Below are positions 3,457 to 18,919 of a stretch of DNA of 20,422 nucleotides, piece after piece; the stretch's first letter is position 1; the number at the start of each line of letters is the position of its first letter. The DNA is from a virus, in the IMG/VR virus record IMGVR_UViG_3300037119_005678, positions 1-20,422 of that record. One strand, 5' to 3'. Under the pieces are notes generated by a model. That model was not told the DNA's origin. It ran no database searches and was given only the letters and a program-made list of their open reading frames with translations. The position numbers and the translations under genes were made by a program.

Positions 3457-3921
3457 ATGAATGGTCACGCACCAAGTAACGGCGACGAGCAGGAATTTGG
3501 CGACAAAATGAAGATCATGCGCCGCGACGGTTGGGAGCAGACGCTGCCCAGCGGGCGCACGGTGCGCGTGCGCGCCCTGGAGCCACACATGCTTCTGCGT
3601 GATGGTGACTGCCCCGACATCCTCACGCCGATGCTGCTCAAGTCTCTTTACGAAGGGCAGGATGCGGCGGCGCGTGCGTTTTTGACAACAGAGCTGCCCA
3701 GCACAGAAGAGGCGCTCGCCTACGTCGATGCCATAGACCGCATCGTGGACAAGAGCATTGCTGACGGTACGCCGGTCGAGGAATTAACGATTGGGGAAAA
3801 AAAGTGGATATTCCGCCTGGCCCTGGGTGGTGCCGAATTATTGATTACTTTTCGTCTCGAACAGGCGAGAGATGTGGCGGTTGTGGAGGAAGGCGACCAG
3901 CTACCACAAGCTGCCGAGTGA
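3457..3921 (+). CDS. Tail assembly chaperone, upstream frame (G-like)
   Basis: A 154-residue protein starting 3 nt after the tail tube stop. The N-terminal part includes LPSGRTVRVRALEPHMLL, typical of siphophage chaperones that derive from a small beta domain. Helices follow (MLLKSLYEG, EEALAYVDAIDRIVDKSIADG), then GEKKWIFRLALGGAELLITFR. The tail-tube / chaperone / overlapping second frame / tape measure order is the classic arrangement for the proteins that bind and shield the tape measure protein during assembly. The frame overlaps the next open frame from 3845 to 3921. The ORF also contains A AAA AAG at 3798-3804, a canonical slippery heptamer, although a -1 shift there would not enter the downstream chaperone frame. 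Confidence 0.72.
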   Translation: MNGHAPSNGDEQEFGDKMKIMRRDGWEQTLPSGRTVRVRALEPHMLLRDGDCPDILTPMLLKSLYEGQDAAARAFLTTELPSTEEALAYVDAIDRIVDKSIADGTPVEELTIGEKKWIFRLALGGAELLITFRLEQARDVAVVEEGDQLPQAAE

Positions 3922-4243
3922 AATCTTTGGCGAAGAGAACGCCCTGGCCGCCTGGATGCTCGACAATGCCGTAACCACCTTTGGCACGCTGGTCGAAAAC
4001 ATGCTCCAGGAGCGCGAGGAGGTCAGCGTTGGCGACCGTAAAGAGTACCGCCAACGCTACTCGATTGCCCAACTACTCGACCCTACATTTGTTTTTCCGC
4101 GTGATGACGACGCTGAGGAGGATGGCGGCGGCTGGGACGAATCGACATGGGATGAGTCGCAGCTCAAGCCAGATGGCAAAGCCATCAACCTAAACGGCAT
4201 TGTAGGGATTCAGGGCTTGAACTTTGACGAGATAAAGGGGTGA
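3872..4243 (+). CDS. Tail assembly chaperone, downstream frame (T-like extension)
   Basis: This frame is open from 3845 and has an ATG at 3872, giving 123 residues. It contains ATSYHKLPSEIFGEENALA, a form common at the start of the second chaperone domain, then a helical stretch (VTTFGTLVENMLQER) and an acidic tail. It lies +1 relative to the upstream chaperone, so a fusion requires a +1 or -2 shift in the 77-nt overlap; TTT C at 3850-3853 is a plausible +1 site, because tRNA-Phe reads both TTT and TTC. Independent initiation at ATG 3872 is possible, but only a weak ribosome site (AGGCGAG) precedes it. If the frames are fused, the boundaries given are a minimum. Confidence 0.68.
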   Translation: MWRLWRKATSYHKLPSEIFGEENALAAWMLDNAVTTFGTLVENMLQEREEVSVGDRKEYRQRYSIAQLLDPTFVFPRDDDAEEDGGGWDESTWDESQLKPDGKAINLNGIVGIQGLNFDEIKG

Positions 4244-4246
4244 ACT

Positions 4247-4627
4247 ATGGCTTTCCACTGGGACGTGAAACCCACAGATACTTTTCCCGAAGGATACGCA
4301 CAGTATACGCGTGCCGTCTATGTCACGGGGCGGCGTGTAGCGGAGAGCCGCGCTGAACAAATGTTGGCCTGGGCTCGACAAAACGCGCCTTGGAATGATG
4401 TAACGGGAGCTGCGCGGGCCGGCTTAAATGTGACTGTAACTCAAGCTCCTGGCGTAGTCGCAGAGATTACGCTGGCGCATGATCCAGCGCTGAATTACCC
4501 TGTATATCTTGAGACCCGCTTCGCGGGACGGGACGCCATAATTGCGCCAAGCGTGGACGTATGGGGGGCGATCTTCCAAAGGGATATGACTCGAATTGTG
4601 AACTTACAACTGGCAACTAAAGGCTAG
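4247..4627 (+). CDS. HK97 gp10-like tail completion / minor structural protein
   Basis: A 126-residue protein whose ATG lies 4 nt after the preceding stop, with a GGGGTGA ribosome site. A helix carrying RAEQMLAWARQNAPWNDVTGAA matches the layout of HK97 gp10-like proteins, in which an amphipathic helix is followed by AP-x-x-TG. A beta region follows (NVTVTQAPGVVAEITLAH), then the characteristic NYPVYLETRFAGRDAIIAPS, equivalent to the YA-x-YLE-x-G and P-x-x-x-P segments of that family. The family usually acts at the head-tail or tail-completion interface. Its position after the chaperones rather than before the tube gene is unusual but not unknown. It is the last gene before the antisense moron. 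Confidence 0.62.
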   Translation: MAFHWDVKPTDTFPEGYAQYTRAVYVTGRRVAESRAEQMLAWARQNAPWNDVTGAARAGLNVTVTQAPGVVAEITLAHDPALNYPVYLETRFAGRDAIIAPSVDVWGAIFQRDMTRIVNLQLATKG

Positions 4628-4664: not shown

Positions 4665-4961
4665 CTAACTGTCCACAAATTTGGCGTTGATATAGCCAAC
4701 TTGACCTTGGCAGTCCAGCTTATCAAAAGTGGAGTACATGCCTTCTTCCCACTTAATCGTGATCGAGTCATCTAGATTGGTGCAAACCGTTCCAACTGGA
4801 AAGTCGGCAAATGCATCTTGACCCGAACCAGGTTCGGCCCACATTTGCAGTGGTTCACCGGTTGGGCGCTGCAAAGTGACCTGATTGGAAGTAAAGAATA
4901 ATCCCTTTACGACGAAAAGTAGTGCTATGGACAGACCGACTAACCCGATTTTGTTTCTCAT
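4665..4961 (-). CDS. Secreted or membrane-anchored SH3-like small protein (moron)
   Basis: A 98-residue protein on the opposite strand to its neighbours. The ATG at 4961 has an AAGGAA site 7 nt upstream. The N-terminus (MRNK, then hydrophobic residues 5-23) is a signal anchor or signal peptide without a lipobox. Residues 28-98 look like a bacterial SH3 domain: LQMWAEPGSGQ, FPVGTVC, and QGQVGYINAKFV at the end. Cys60 and Cys84 could form a disulfide, which fits export. The flanks (4628-5075) look more A+T-rich than the tail genes. A single antisense gene of this kind between tail genes is typical of a moron that alters the host envelope, for example superinfection exclusion. That function is inference; no homologue is named. 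Confidence 0.7.
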   Translation of the reverse strand: MRNKIGLVGLSIALLFVVKGLFFTSNQVTLQRPTGEPLQMWAEPGSGQDAFADFPVGTVCTNLDDSITIKWEEGMYSTFDKLDCQGQVGYINAKFVDS

Positions 4962-5075: not shown

Positions 5076-7637
5076 ATGCCAACTGAGCTTGGGGCGGCAC
5101 ATGGAACTATCGTAATAGAGGCTCAATTAACACAGGCCGCTAACGACATCTCACAATTCAGCCGCAAGAGTGAGCAGGAACTTGACCGGCTAGCGGCCAG
5201 TTCAATGCGCGCCCAGCAAAGTATGAATGAGCTGGCCGGCGCGTTTGGCGTTGCCTTCAGCATTGCCGGAGTCGTACAGTTGGGACGGATGGGCGTTGAG
5301 CTGGCCAAGAGTGCAGCCGAGGCCGATGCTGCCGCCGTATCTTTTGAACATTTAGCCGACAGCATTAATGAAGATGCGGACGAAATCTTAGCGGGGATGC
5401 AAAAGGCATCAAGGGGAGCAATCTCCAATGCCAACCTGATTCTAGCCGCCAACCGCGCCATCGGCTCTGAGATTGTCGATAGTAGCGCCGAACTGAATCA
5501 GTTGCTTGAAATTGCCACCGCAACGGGGCGCGCCTTTGGCTTTACGACGACGGAGGCATTTGAGCGTATTGTTGGCGGTCTTGCCAAGTTAGAGCCGGAA
5601 CTGTTGGATGAACTCAACATTACGGTGAAGCTGAATGAAGCGTATGACACCTATGCTCAAAGTCTGGGCAAGACAAGCGAGCAACTGAGCGAAGCCGAGC
5701 GGCGACAGGCGCTCTTTAATGAGGTTGTACGCGAAAGCCAACCGGCAGTTGATGCTGCCGGCGATGCAGCCGGCGATTCATTCGAGAAGTGGAATCAGTT
5801 GACGGCCGCCTTTGACAATCTCAAAGAGGCAGCAGGCAACGTGGTCAACGCCGTGGGCTTTCTGGATACGTGGACGCACGACCTAGAGACACTAGCCGAC
5901 CAACTGGAAACGGCCGTCGAGTGGATGAAGGAACTCAAGGAGTGGGCAGATCGGGTTAAGGCCACCAACTTTGCGGAACTTCTGAGTCAGGCCGCGGCGG
6001 GTGGCATCCCCACACCAACCAGTCCTTTTGCGGGGGGTGGTGGCCTTGGCGGCGGCGGCGGGGGCGGTGGAACTGGTGGCTTTGAAGGGCCGGATGACCC
6101 CGGCTTTAGCGCCGAAGCCAATGAAGCCATGCTGGACTGGGCCGCCGAGCGCACCCAAATCGAGCGCGACGCCAACGCCGATATTTTGGATGAAAATCGC
6201 TCTTACCAACAGCAGCGCGCCAGCAGCATTGCCGACTACGAGCAGAGCATCACGCGCTCTGCCGCCAACTATGCCAAGCAGCGCGCACGCGCCGTCGAGG
6301 AGTATGAGAAGGGCGTGGCGCGCTTCCAACGGGACGCGCAGGCACAGCAGTTGCGTATGGCTGAGGATCACGAGCGCAATTTGGCCAGGATGCGTGCGGA
6401 TCATGCCCAGCGGCTTGCTGACCTTCAGGAAGATTTGGACACAAGAAACAGTGAGCGCCGCGCCGAGTCGGCTGAACGCCTGGCTGACTTTGCTGAAGAT
6501 CGCGACGAAGGCATCGTCGAGGCGCGTGAGAAGAGCGCCGGCCGCCTGCTCGAAATCGAAGAGGCGTATGCGAGCAACCGTGTGCGCGCCGTACGCCAGC
6601 ATGAGGACGCACTCAGCGAAGCTGCCTCCCGTCTTGATGCGCGCGCCGTCTATAACGAACAGCGCCGCTTTGCGCGTGAGCAGGAGGAGGCCGCAGAAGC
6701 CCACCAGGAGAAGGTAGACGACGAGCAGGAAAAGCTGGACGAGGCCATCAAGAACCTCAACGATGCCTATACCCAAAAGGTCGCTGATGAGCAGGAGGCG
6801 TTGCAGAAGTCGATTGACCAGGCGCAAAAAGCCTACGACAAACAGGTATCCGATGCTAACGAGGCTTTTGAACAGCGTGAGCAGGATGCGATTGACTCCT
6901 ATAAGCTGCAGGCGGCTGATTTCCAGACGCAGCACGAGCAGCGCCTCAGCGACATGGCCACCGATTTCAACGAAGAGATGACGCAGCGCGACGGCGACCA
7001 GGCAGACCGCATTAGCGAGATGAAAACGGACCATCAGGAAAACCTGACCGAACTCGACACGGAGCATGGCGAACGGCTTACGCAAATCGGCCGCCACGCC
7101 GCCGAGGAGCGCGGCGAGCTTGACACTGAATTTGAGAAGCGCATGACGGAGTTGAGCGGTCATGAGTTCGACCTGGAGACGGAACAGTTTAAGCACCAGA
7201 ACCGCATGTTGGACGGCTACCAGGATTATCTGGACGACATCGAGCGCGAGCAAATCAAGCATCAAATTCGTATGCTGCGCCTGCTGGCGGAAACGCCCGG
7301 CCTGACGCCGGCGGAGTTGCAAGACATTAACAATGCCATCACGGACCTAGGGATTGCCCTGGGCAAGGTGGGCGATGCGGTCACGCATGTCGATCCGCGT
7401 ATAGCGCCGGTACAAATCGCACCGGGCGACCAGCTGGTGACGGCGGGCTTAAGTGGCGCCAGCTTTATCACGCCTGCAACAGGAGGCGGCGGCCCAACAG
7501 TCGCCGGTATGGCCGTGACCATTGCGTCGGGAGCTATCGTCATCAACGCCGCGCCTGGCATGAGTACGGCAGGCATGGGCGATGAATTTGAACGCAGGCT
7601 GCTTACGGTCCTGCAAAGAGTAGCGAGGAACGGCTAA
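5076..7637 (+). CDS. Tail tape measure protein
   Basis: An 853-residue protein downstream of the chaperone frames, starting at ATG 5076 with GAGGAA about 8 nt upstream. Residues 1-100 are helical with a hydrophobic stretch (AFGVAFSIAGVVQLGRMGVE). Residues 100-310 carry a segment typical of tape measure N-terminal regions: TATGRAFGFTTTEAFERIVG, LDELNITVKLNEAYDTYA, EAERRQALFNEVV. A Gly-rich linker follows at about 316-340. Residues 367-697 are thirty consecutive 11-residue repeats forming a long coiled coil. The C-terminal 120 residues are Gly/Ala-rich. The protein sets tail length, and the length rule for siphophages (about 0.15 nm per residue) predicts a tail near 130 nm. The stop overlaps the next ATG (TAATG). 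Confidence 0.92.
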   Translation: MPTELGAAHGTIVIEAQLTQAANDISQFSRKSEQELDRLAASSMRAQQSMNELAGAFGVAFSIAGVVQLGRMGVELAKSAAEADAAAVSFEHLADSINEDADEILAGMQKASRGAISNANLILAANRAIGSEIVDSSAELNQLLEIATATGRAFGFTTTEAFERIVGGLAKLEPELLDELNITVKLNEAYDTYAQSLGKTSEQLSEAERRQALFNEVVRESQPAVDAAGDAAGDSFEKWNQLTAAFDNLKEAAGNVVNAVGFLDTWTHDLETLADQLETAVEWMKELKEWADRVKATNFAELLSQAAAGGIPTPTSPFAGGGGLGGGGGGGGTGGFEGPDDPGFSAEANEAMLDWAAERTQIERDANADILDENRSYQQQRASSIADYEQSITRSAANYAKQRARAVEEYEKGVARFQRDAQAQQLRMAEDHERNLARMRADHAQRLADLQEDLDTRNSERRAESAERLADFAEDRDEGIVEAREKSAGRLLEIEEAYASNRVRAVRQHEDALSEAASRLDARAVYNEQRRFAREQEEAAEAHQEKVDDEQEKLDEAIKNLNDAYTQKVADEQEALQKSIDQAQKAYDKQVSDANEAFEQREQDAIDSYKLQAADFQTQHEQRLSDMATDFNEEMTQRDGDQADRISEMKTDHQENLTELDTEHGERLTQIGRHAAEERGELDTEFEKRMTELSGHEFDLETEQFKHQNRMLDGYQDYLDDIEREQIKHQIRMLRLLAETPGLTPAELQDINNAITDLGIALGKVGDAVTHVDPRIAPVQIAPGDQLVTAGLSGASFITPATGGGGPTVAGMAVTIASGAIVINAAPGMSTAGMGDEFERRLLTVLQRVARNG
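6174..7166 (+). repeat. Thirty 11-residue (33-bp) repeats in the tape measure protein
   Basis: From residue 367 to 697 the tape measure protein divides into 30 units of 11 residues, with a single one-residue insertion in unit 15. Units commonly end in Tyr, His, Phe or Leu: for example QQQRASSIADY, EQSITRSAANY, QKSIDQAQKAY, DKQVSDANEAF, QENLTELDTEH. Hydrophobic residues recur near positions 4 and 7. Eleven residues per three turns favours a straight or slightly right-handed coiled coil. The DNA units have diverged, so the period is best seen in the protein. Confidence 0.85.
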
Positions 7638-8011
7638 TGGCCTCAGATTATCGCAGCAAGGTCGGCCTCAACCAAACGCTTGTCAGTCTCACCAAGCTCT
7701 CTCCGCAGCCTTCAAGCGCGGGCGTGATGGCAACGCGGCGCGTGCCATTGGGCGATGGCTCCATCCTTGACCAGGGGCTGTATGTGGAGTGGGTCTACAA
7801 CGTTGTCGAGGACGCCGCGCAGTTGCTGGCGATCCTCACCCCATTGGGCCTGCACACCGCTAAATCGAGCGTGGTGACGATTTATACCAGGGACGACCTC
7901 TATGCCTACAAACGCTACAATGGAATAGCTCATAGACCCGCCCCTTCCTGGGAGAGTTATTTTCCACGGAATGTGGTCATCCTCATTCGCAACCTGGAAA
8001 TTTTACCTTAG
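7637..8011 (+). CDS. Minor tail protein downstream of tape measure
   Basis: A 124-residue protein whose ATG overlaps the tape measure TAA. It is not confidently assigned to a family. It contains beta-type segments (QGLYVEWVYNVV, SSVVTIYTRDDLYAYKRYNG) and ends with NVVILIRNLEILP. In siphophages the gene directly after the tape measure encodes a distal tail or adaptor protein of the tail tip, and the size would fit a small adaptor. This is inferred from position. Its TAG stop overlaps the TAA stop of the converging HNH gene (shared TTAG), so there are no spare bases between them. Confidence 0.6.
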   Translation: MASDYRSKVGLNQTLVSLTKLSPQPSSAGVMATRRVPLGDGSILDQGLYVEWVYNVVEDAAQLLAILTPLGLHTAKSSVVTIYTRDDLYAYKRYNGIAHRPAPSWESYFPRNVVILIRNLEILP

Positions 8012-8631
8012 GGAAGGTGCTTCCATACCAAATGGCGAACAATGTCGGAAACAAGCGACTGAGAAACAGCAAAATGCGCTGCCAGTCGGGTTTGCGTCCA
8101 ACCCATCTTGTACAGTTTACGCATTTCTATAACTTGAGAATCAGACAGGCGAGCCTGTGCAACTCGACCGCCGAAGACGTGACGAGATTTTGCAACTTTA
8201 TCCGCCATGTTGTCTTGATGGGTTCCGAGGAAAAGATGATTCGGGTTGACGCAAGGAGGGTTGTCGCATTTATGCAACACATGCAAGCCGTCAGAAATTG
8301 GGCCAAAATGAATTTCATAAGAAAGGCGATGCGCCATCAATTTGCCATTCGGATAATCCGGCAAGAAACCATAGCCTGCAAGGTATCTTCCGCCTGTCCA
8401 CTCCCAACATTCTTGAGCTTTCCCGACCCGCACCTTTCCCCAAAAACGATCAGCGAGCGGCTTGCGTCTCTTTGGGCCATTGCGACGATATTCTATGCCT
8501 TCAATACGGGTGCATTGTTTACAACAACTATGCAATCCGCCGGGTGTGTTCTTGTCGCGGTGGAAGAACTCTGGCGTTCTAGGGTATTGGTTGGTGCAGC
8601 GGGGGCAGCGTTTTGGGGTATCATTATTCAT
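8008..8631 (-). CDS. HNH homing-type endonuclease with zinc-binding and helix-turn-helix domains
   Basis: A 207-residue protein. C9-x2-C12 and C37-x2-C40 form a probable zinc finger. RFWGKV (62-67) and ECWEWTGG lead into the HNH core: AHRLSYEIHFGPISDGL with His101, then LHKCDNPPCVNPNHLFLGT with His120, Cys122, Cys127, Asn131 and His132, followed by QDNMADK. Residues 160-200 (LSDSQVIEMRKLYKMGWTQ, then AAHFAVSQSLVSDIVR) are a helix-turn-helix that would bind DNA. Free-standing HNH genes of this sort cut phage DNA and promote their own spread. The gene is antisense in the tail operon between the minor tail and hub genes. The ATG has AAGGAG 8 nt upstream, inside a leader hairpin. All catalytic residues look intact. 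Confidence 0.92.
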   Translation of the reverse strand: MNNDTPKRCPRCTNQYPRTPEFFHRDKNTPGGLHSCCKQCTRIEGIEYRRNGPKRRKPLADRFWGKVRVGKAQECWEWTGGRYLAGYGFLPDYPNGKLMAHRLSYEIHFGPISDGLHVLHKCDNPPCVNPNHLFLGTHQDNMADKVAKSRHVFGGRVAQARLSDSQVIEMRKLYKMGWTQTRLAAHFAVSQSLVSDIVRHLVWKHLP

Positions 8632-17676: not shown

Positions 17677-18249
17677 CTAGGTGGACATACCCCTACGGCT
17701 ACGAGCTTGGCGGTATTCCTGGACTACCAGGGGCCATTGCGCCCAGTACCTTTGTGCGCCGGCTAGTGTATCGAAGTCAAACATGTTGCAGATCCAGCAT
17801 CTTCGTGTACGGTCGTACAGGAACAGGCCAGGCGGTCTACTGTCTGTCTGTACCTGGCGTTGCTGGATCATCTCCCTTAGCACAATCCCCTCCGATCTGC
17901 TTAACCCCCAACGCTTGTGCCCATTGCGCCCGAACGGAGCTGCGATCAAGAACCGATGCGTCACCGGGTCCACGTTGCACAGCACCCCTTCAGAGGTTTC
18001 GTAGGCCAGTTGCGTGAGGCGTTGCATCACCTCCATGAATAATTCCACAATCGCCATATCGACATTGCGCCTGCTCAGGTTGGCGGCAAGGCGTTGCACC
18101 GTGGTATGGCGCGGGGGCCGGGTGCTTGCGATATCTTCTTTTCGACCAAGGCTATGGAAGATGCTACCGTTTGCCATAACGTTTGCGCCTCGGTGTTCTG
18201 GGTTGGTCAACATACTTGCCATGCTTGTAGCTTGGGTGGTCTGCGCCAC
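17677..18249 (-). CDS. Hypothetical protein, end of the minus-strand cluster
   Basis: 190 residues from GTG 18249, or 166 from ATG 18177. The longer start has a modest GGAAAG site, but it overlaps the HNH gene by 86 nt. ATG 18177 overlaps by only 14 nt with GAGG about 10 nt upstream, and its position mirrors the start of the HNH gene relative to the end of its own upstream gene, so 18177 may be the true start. The protein is mixed alpha/beta: a helix at [20 protein letters not shown], a strand-like [10 protein letters not shown], a helix at [11 protein letters not shown], then [11 protein letters not shown] and a basic C-terminus. There is no known motif. It is cytosolic by composition. The gene follows the annealing protein cluster and precedes the terminator. 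Confidence 0.6.
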
Positions 18250-18919
18250 GTAGGACTTTCCTCTGCCCGTATCGGCCCTTGGACATCATGTCGTCAACAT
18301 TGTCTTGGGGTGTACCGATAAACAGATGGGCAGGATTACAGCACTCGCGATTATCACAGCGATGACAAACATACATTCCGTCAGGAATGGGGCCATTAAA
18401 CAACTCATGGGCGAGGCGATGGGCCGGGTAGTTCTTGCCACGAAAAATGATTCGTCCGTATCCGGGGCTAGCGATAGTGCGAGCATTCCAGCATTCTTCT
18501 CGCTTGCCAACAAACACTTGTTGCACAAAAGCATCTCCCAAAGACTTGTATTTATAGTGGTGCCTGCCAACATTGATGTGTCCAGGGCAAAAACGTTGGG
18601 GCATGCCTTTGATTGTGCCAGTTGTTTTGGCTGTGTACTTTGCGATGGGGGCATCTTGCCCACATCCACATTGACATTTGCCATAGGCATAAACCAGCCC
18701 GTATATCTGAACCCATGGAGCCATGTCGTCCGGCGTATACTTCGGTGGACGGTGGCCCAAGATGAATGGCTTGGGATGATTCCGCTTATAGCCACCGTAT
18801 TTATCACTGACGCGTGATATTTTGGTAAGCTGGCCGCATCCACACTGACACTCGCCGTATGGATAGATCAGACCATACTTTTCTACCCATGGGGCATACT
18901 CTTTATTTTCGGTTTCCAT
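18164..18919 (-). CDS. HNH endonuclease with duplicated CQCGCG domain
   Basis: A 251-residue protein. Two repeats of about 48 residues (9-56 and 67-114) share APWV, YGL, YG-x-CQCGCGQ and end in GH; they are likely zinc-binding, DNA-reading units. The HNH core follows: [17 protein letters not shown] with His167, then [20 protein letters not shown] with His186, Cys188, Cys193 and His198, then [12 protein letters not shown]. All nuclease residues look intact. ATG 18919 has AGGAAG close upstream and overlaps the end of the membrane protein gene by 17 nt. Unlike the other two HNH genes it runs in the same direction as its neighbours and has no private promoter or hairpin leader. It probably entered a cotranscribed early operon and relies on its transcript. 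Confidence 0.9.

Follow-up and report, generated by a model that had tools for sequence, protein, structure and literature searches.

Tail length is usually read from the tape measure protein (TMP) as an extended helix, and a TMP that carries a long array of 11-residue repeats (hendecads) raises the question of whether such an array is a straight ruler that gains and loses its units singly. We addressed this question in a virus fragment of 20,422 bases (the window), for which a sequence-only reading had counted exactly 30 hendecads plus a single one-residue insertion between residues 367 and 697 of one protein and had proposed that tail length could change in steps of 33 bp. The gene in question (positions 5076-7637, + strand, as for all parts of the protein given below) encodes 853 amino acids, and residue 367 does lie at base 6174, as had been stated. 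Residues 107-298 match the tape measure family PHROG 3779 (E 1.2e-19), and the setting is that of tail genes, with a major tail protein (PHROG 4971) and a tail assembly chaperone (PHROG 4336) encoded upstream and tail-tip genes, including a PF09327 tail-tip protein, downstream. Judged by sequence and context the protein is thus a TMP, as had already been suggested. A Pfam search of the protein gave no family at E up to 1, and a sequence search of solved structures gave just one unconvincing internalin match. Two other assignments were discarded, namely membership in the chemoreceptors (MCP), given that the TMP has no recognised Pfam domain, and a match to PHROG 1538, an unspecific coiled-coil family that control genomes hit too.

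The 11-residue periodicity, including that of the aromatic and His positions, stood up to scrutiny, with both spectra and phase concentration above shuffles. In residues 367-697 the hydrophobicity spectrum peaks at 3.68 residues (~11/3) with a power of 28, where the 95% maximum of shuffles is 7.9, and the spectrum of F, Y, W and H has peaks at 5.52, 3.68 and 11.04 residues, all of them above shuffles. Nine of these residues in the first half of the array (arm 1) and 11 in the second (arm 2) share one of the 11 phases, counts that were matched in none of 20,000 shuffles in either arm. The unit count fared less well. The pattern spans residues ~345-735, past the limits given earlier, and its phase changes at residue 520, the core positions counted from L520 being 0, 4/5 and 7 mod 11 before it and 1, 5 and 8 after it. 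Since a second shift, of -1, follows near residues 687-696, the figure of exactly 30 units arises by chance from where the limits were set. The one-residue insertion itself is real and is not noise, as it marks the junction of two independent hendecad arrays at an invariant motif. Read from its sequence, the repeat region is two hendecad arrays in different phases rather than one. The motif in the centre (residues 509-528, 6600-6659, HEDALSEAASRLDARAVYNE) has the consensus H-x7-AA-xx-LDA-x-A-x3-E, in which H509, A517, L520, D521, A522, A524 and E528 are invariant among 29 full-length TMPs. At the DNA level, the TMP gene contains no tandem repeat and only short chance repeats.

Viral and genome contigs scanned directly with this single TMP gave no relatives, and two neighbouring genes, followed by profiles, were therefore used as queries. 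These yielded 31 distinct TMPs of the array family, all from uncultivated viruses. No host-borne copy of the array TMP turned up when genome contigs were scanned with a profile, and the array had no match in 50,697 phage records, where the BLAST low-complexity filter may hide some. Phage isolates gave N-terminal matches only, to TMPs of Vibrio, Aeromonas and Klebsiella phages. Five long-array proteins, the one in the window among them, align over the array free of gaps, with the other four 29-36% identical to the window, which argues that the repeat number is not freely drifting.

How the array does change in length became evident in two relatives, L016 and L017, in which 44 residues are missing before the RLDA motif and 44 after it. 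Three profile blocks (array start, centre and array end) were therefore built and both arms measured in every relative, taking as arm length the distance from a unique profile anchor to the L of LDA. The anchor blocks, each a unique best profile match, correspond to residues 354-406 (6135-6293) for arm 1 and 617-690 (6924-7145) for arm 2. Arm 1 falls into seven length classes of 88, 95, 99, 110, 121, 143 and 165 residues, and across all seven the difference between arm 2 and arm 1 is constant, arm 2 being longer by that constant in 31 of 31 TMPs; the agreement held in the first 15 proteins measured, in six more and then in the full set of distinct proteins. Both arms change equally in every relative, which a straight ruler would have no need to do. 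The array thus changes by two hendecads at a time, one in each arm, and not by the single 33-bp step proposed earlier, for which the gene also lacks DNA tandem repeats that would point to slippage.

The matching does not stem from anchors misplaced by multiples of 11, a possibility rejected on the far lower scores of second-best placements, which for the arm 1 anchor trail by 20 bits or more in most proteins. L040 required manual placement, as both anchors are hit by its deletions; it has lost 11 residues from each arm, at an equal distance from the centre (d = 92 residues in both). Matched insertions or deletions at facing levels are also found between L039 and L056 or L084, while those of L036 (d 58 vs 28-31) and L061 (d 40 vs 18-24) lie off the facing level, which is tolerable because a shift by a whole hendecad keeps the register. 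The expectation that relatives differ by multiples of 11 was mostly borne out within the array, with the exception of L032/L054, where the difference is 4 residues, not 11, and is again present in both arms. A tree built from the three blocks requires at least nine length changes, an approximate count given the weakly supported deep nodes of the smaller tree; all of them are matched, and the length classes recur in separate places. Random pairing of seven classes would give a perfect match in 1 of 5,040 cases.

Structure prediction provides a physical frame for this co-variation. In an AlphaFold2 model of residues 342-745, based on a 20-sequence alignment (pLDDT 90.8), the array consists of two helices of 173 residues each, arm 1 at residues 346-518 (6111-6629) and arm 2 at residues 522-694 (6639-7157), broken only at R519-L520-D521 (6630-6638). 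This predicted turn is the site of the one-residue insertion and the sole helix break of the array in both runs, as the helix limits were unchanged in a full-length run with 29 sequences, whose confidence elsewhere was poor (pTM 0.35). A following helix (residues 700-738, 7173-7289) lies beyond the matched arms. The model aligns structurally with the antifreeze protein Maxi (4ke2) over all 196 residues of the latter at 2.6 angstroms (model positions 78-276) and with the chemoreceptor 2ch7 at 8.9 angstroms (model positions 19-338), both alignments being centred on the turn. We take these matches as a sign of closed arms and not of kinship because unrelated helical matches also reach Z-scores of this size (~13); a Foldseek search of viral proteins with the model returned proteins with long helices that tell little. 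One caveat is that AlphaFold2, when run on a monomer, can bring long helices together as an artefact. The charges of the arms were examined as well, letting residue i face residue j at constant i + j and averaging the charge product over 26 non-redundant relatives. The minimum among 81 antiparallel registers falls where the turn is LDA, and at this register the facing charges are attractive (negative product) in 26 of 26 proteins. Bootstraps placed the minimum at offsets 0 to 5 in 95.6% of cases, and parallel pairing of the arms showed no such minimum near zero offset. Per residue this signal is weak, and when some of the short-arm classes are taken by themselves the minimum is not found at the correct register.

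Matched arms, predicted fold and charge register are most readily accommodated if the array is, as we consider very probable, an antiparallel helical hairpin whose arms lengthen in paired hendecads and not a straight ruler of 30 units. Two straight and equal hendecad helices of 173 residues, ~26 nm each, would pack along their aromatic/aliphatic stripes, with the tight turn between them located at the invariant RLDA motif and each unit in one arm facing a unit in the other. Since every unit would have to face a partner unit, the arms could lengthen or shorten only together, and length would normally evolve by one hendecad per arm, that is 2 x 33 bp and 16.5 angstroms of rod per pair. We infer that the arms pair within one chain, and from the arm sizes at 1.5 angstroms per residue the rods would measure roughly 18-29 nm across the family. 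Each arm has one hydrophobic stripe with the aromatics in its middle, and by hendecad phase the rings would therefore face the partner arm in a hairpin and not the tube or chaperones, as had been thought. The pairwise contacts are predicted at i + j of about 1040-1042. The exact co-variation of the arms is a physical constraint that can be read from sequence alone, and the arm-matching analysis could be applied to other TMPs.

At which stage the hairpin exists is a separate matter. Published TMPs are parallel trimers and are extended where seen in full, and the hairpin could therefore either be present within the tail, which would place more helices side by side in the lumen, or be adopted by the protein before assembly or after ejection. 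A hairpin inside the tail would break with the only complete TMP structure solved for a tail-like particle, that of diffocin, in which three helices run along the lumen as an extended coiled coil (PMC10996793). The two options come close to each other, with a slight lean towards a TMP that serves in the tail as an extended three-helix ruler of the ordinary kind and adopts the hairpin as its free or ejected fold, e.g. by refolding after release into the cell envelope, where matched arms would be selected; we hold this to be somewhat short of an even chance. The diffocin TMP, extended in the lumen, has been proposed to refold once released (PMC10996793), and in JBD30 a TMP density ~20 angstroms wide was read as a TMP trimer (PMC11445458). 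Moreover, a monomer prediction suits the free state equally well. This explanation differs from a hairpin within the tail in timing and not in the hairpin itself. The alternative, on which we place slightly less weight as a tentative reading, is that part of the TMP length is folded within the tail, three copies then giving six or more helices in the lumen. If so, tail length or lumen filling would evolve in paired hendecads, and tail length would not simply follow the repeat number, since the folded array would add the length of one arm to the tail and not of two. TMPs of this class would then not obey the rule that each residue accounts for 1.5 angstroms of tail. Either way, the class of array TMPs is predicted to depart from the ruler rule or to refold. 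The placement of the TMP in the tail has itself been named an open question (PMC9022992).

Matched arms and the same charge register would also be expected if two extended molecules formed an antiparallel dimer with a two-fold axis at LDA, arm 1 of one chain facing arm 2 of the other. We regard such a dimer as improbable, given the polarity of the tail tube, the parallel arrangement of solved TMP trimers and the helix break that AlphaFold2 places at residues 519-521, for which a straight dimer has no need. Even less credible is a straight ruler of freely variable hendecad number in which the equality of the arms is a coincidence of shared ancestry. Most length differences are indeed multiples of 11, and TMP length sets tail length in lambda, as cited in PMC3271669, but every change on the tree is matched, including one of 4 residues in both arms, and seven classes pair perfectly. 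Just as far-fetched are arms matched to fixed partners without touching each other, for instance to chaperone or tube sites symmetric about the motif, since this would fit the idea that chaperones coat TMPs during assembly (PMC9022992) but leaves the charge complementarity between the arms and the helix break unexplained.

With regard to known systems, 11-residue W/F repeats have been described in TMPs by Belcaid et al. 2011, with patterns of seven F/W residues at a spacing of 11 or of 11-11-18 (PMC3271669). The array shares with these proteins the 11-residue period, the aromatic marker positions and lengths that vary by multiples of 11. Unlike them, it has no DNA-level repeats and is composed of two arrays around a central motif that change together, and the published [FW]-x10 patterns match none of the 31 proteins. 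The similarity to the repeats of dairy phages that had been proposed is therefore not upheld, and by the patterns of that study the array TMP is not of the published W/F-repeat type. C-terminal TMP trimers are known from JBD30, T5 and 80alpha (PMC11445458), and these, like the diffocin TMP (PMC10996793), are long helical tail proteins forming extended coiled coils, whereas an equal-arm fold-back is predicted here.

The closest parallel in principle is the cytoplasmic hairpin of chemoreceptors, which occurs in length classes of 12-32 paired heptads at ~10.5 angstroms per pair (PMC6628036). The array, if folded as proposed, would likewise be an antiparallel hairpin whose length classes differ by units paired across the arms, and its model has the structural match to 2ch7. 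The likeness is one of principle only, as the TMP is built of hendecads and not heptads, is an unrelated protein and has no signalling domain. Similarly, Maxi from winter flounder is a helix hairpin built of 11-residue helical repeats with ~3.7 residues per turn (PMC5304152), but is alanine-rich with a watery core and bears no relation to the TMP. A search of the open-access literature gave no report of a hairpin or antiparallel TMP. Paired-unit length classes thus follow a principle already known from chemoreceptors, and their occurrence in a TMP appears to be unreported in the open-access literature searched.

The N-terminal part of the TMP seems to have a history of its own. The N-terminal helical domain (residues 1-307, 5076-5996) is swapped among relatives independently of the array and is joined to it by a Gly-rich linker (residues 318-336, 6027-6083) within a stretch devoid of predicted helix (residues 308-345). 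While the array of the window is ~81% identical to that of L027, identity over the N-terminal 300 residues is 29% to L027 and 44% to L043, and residues 75-302 match L005 and L007, TMPs without this array, at 38-40%. Judging from these identities, array and N-terminal domain are exchanged as modules, with the joint near the linker (mosaic region 5076-6100). On the opposite strand an ORF of 476 codons (5892-7322, -) runs through the array and is longer than in 500 synonymous shuffles. It was rejected as a gene, being not conserved and interrupted in most relatives, and reflects a codon use of the array that differs from that of the N-terminal part.

Several further features of the surrounding genes were observed. 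The chaperone ORF (3457-4243) is overlapped by an ORF in another frame (3872-4243), as in the programmed frameshift pairs found upstream of TMPs, and no clear slippery site was seen. A gene for 126 amino acids (4247-4627) lies between the chaperone and the TMP genes; in relatives it is located upstream of the major tail protein gene, and gene order therefore differs. The same interval holds an ORF of 98 amino acids with a hydrophobic start on the opposite strand (4665-4961, -), possibly an inserted cargo gene. Two more opposite-strand ORFs (8008-8631, -, and 18164-18919, -) resemble HNH homing endonucleases by eye, and the tail region begins with a glycosyltransferase family 4-like gene (1356-2453; PF13439, E 1.6e-8).
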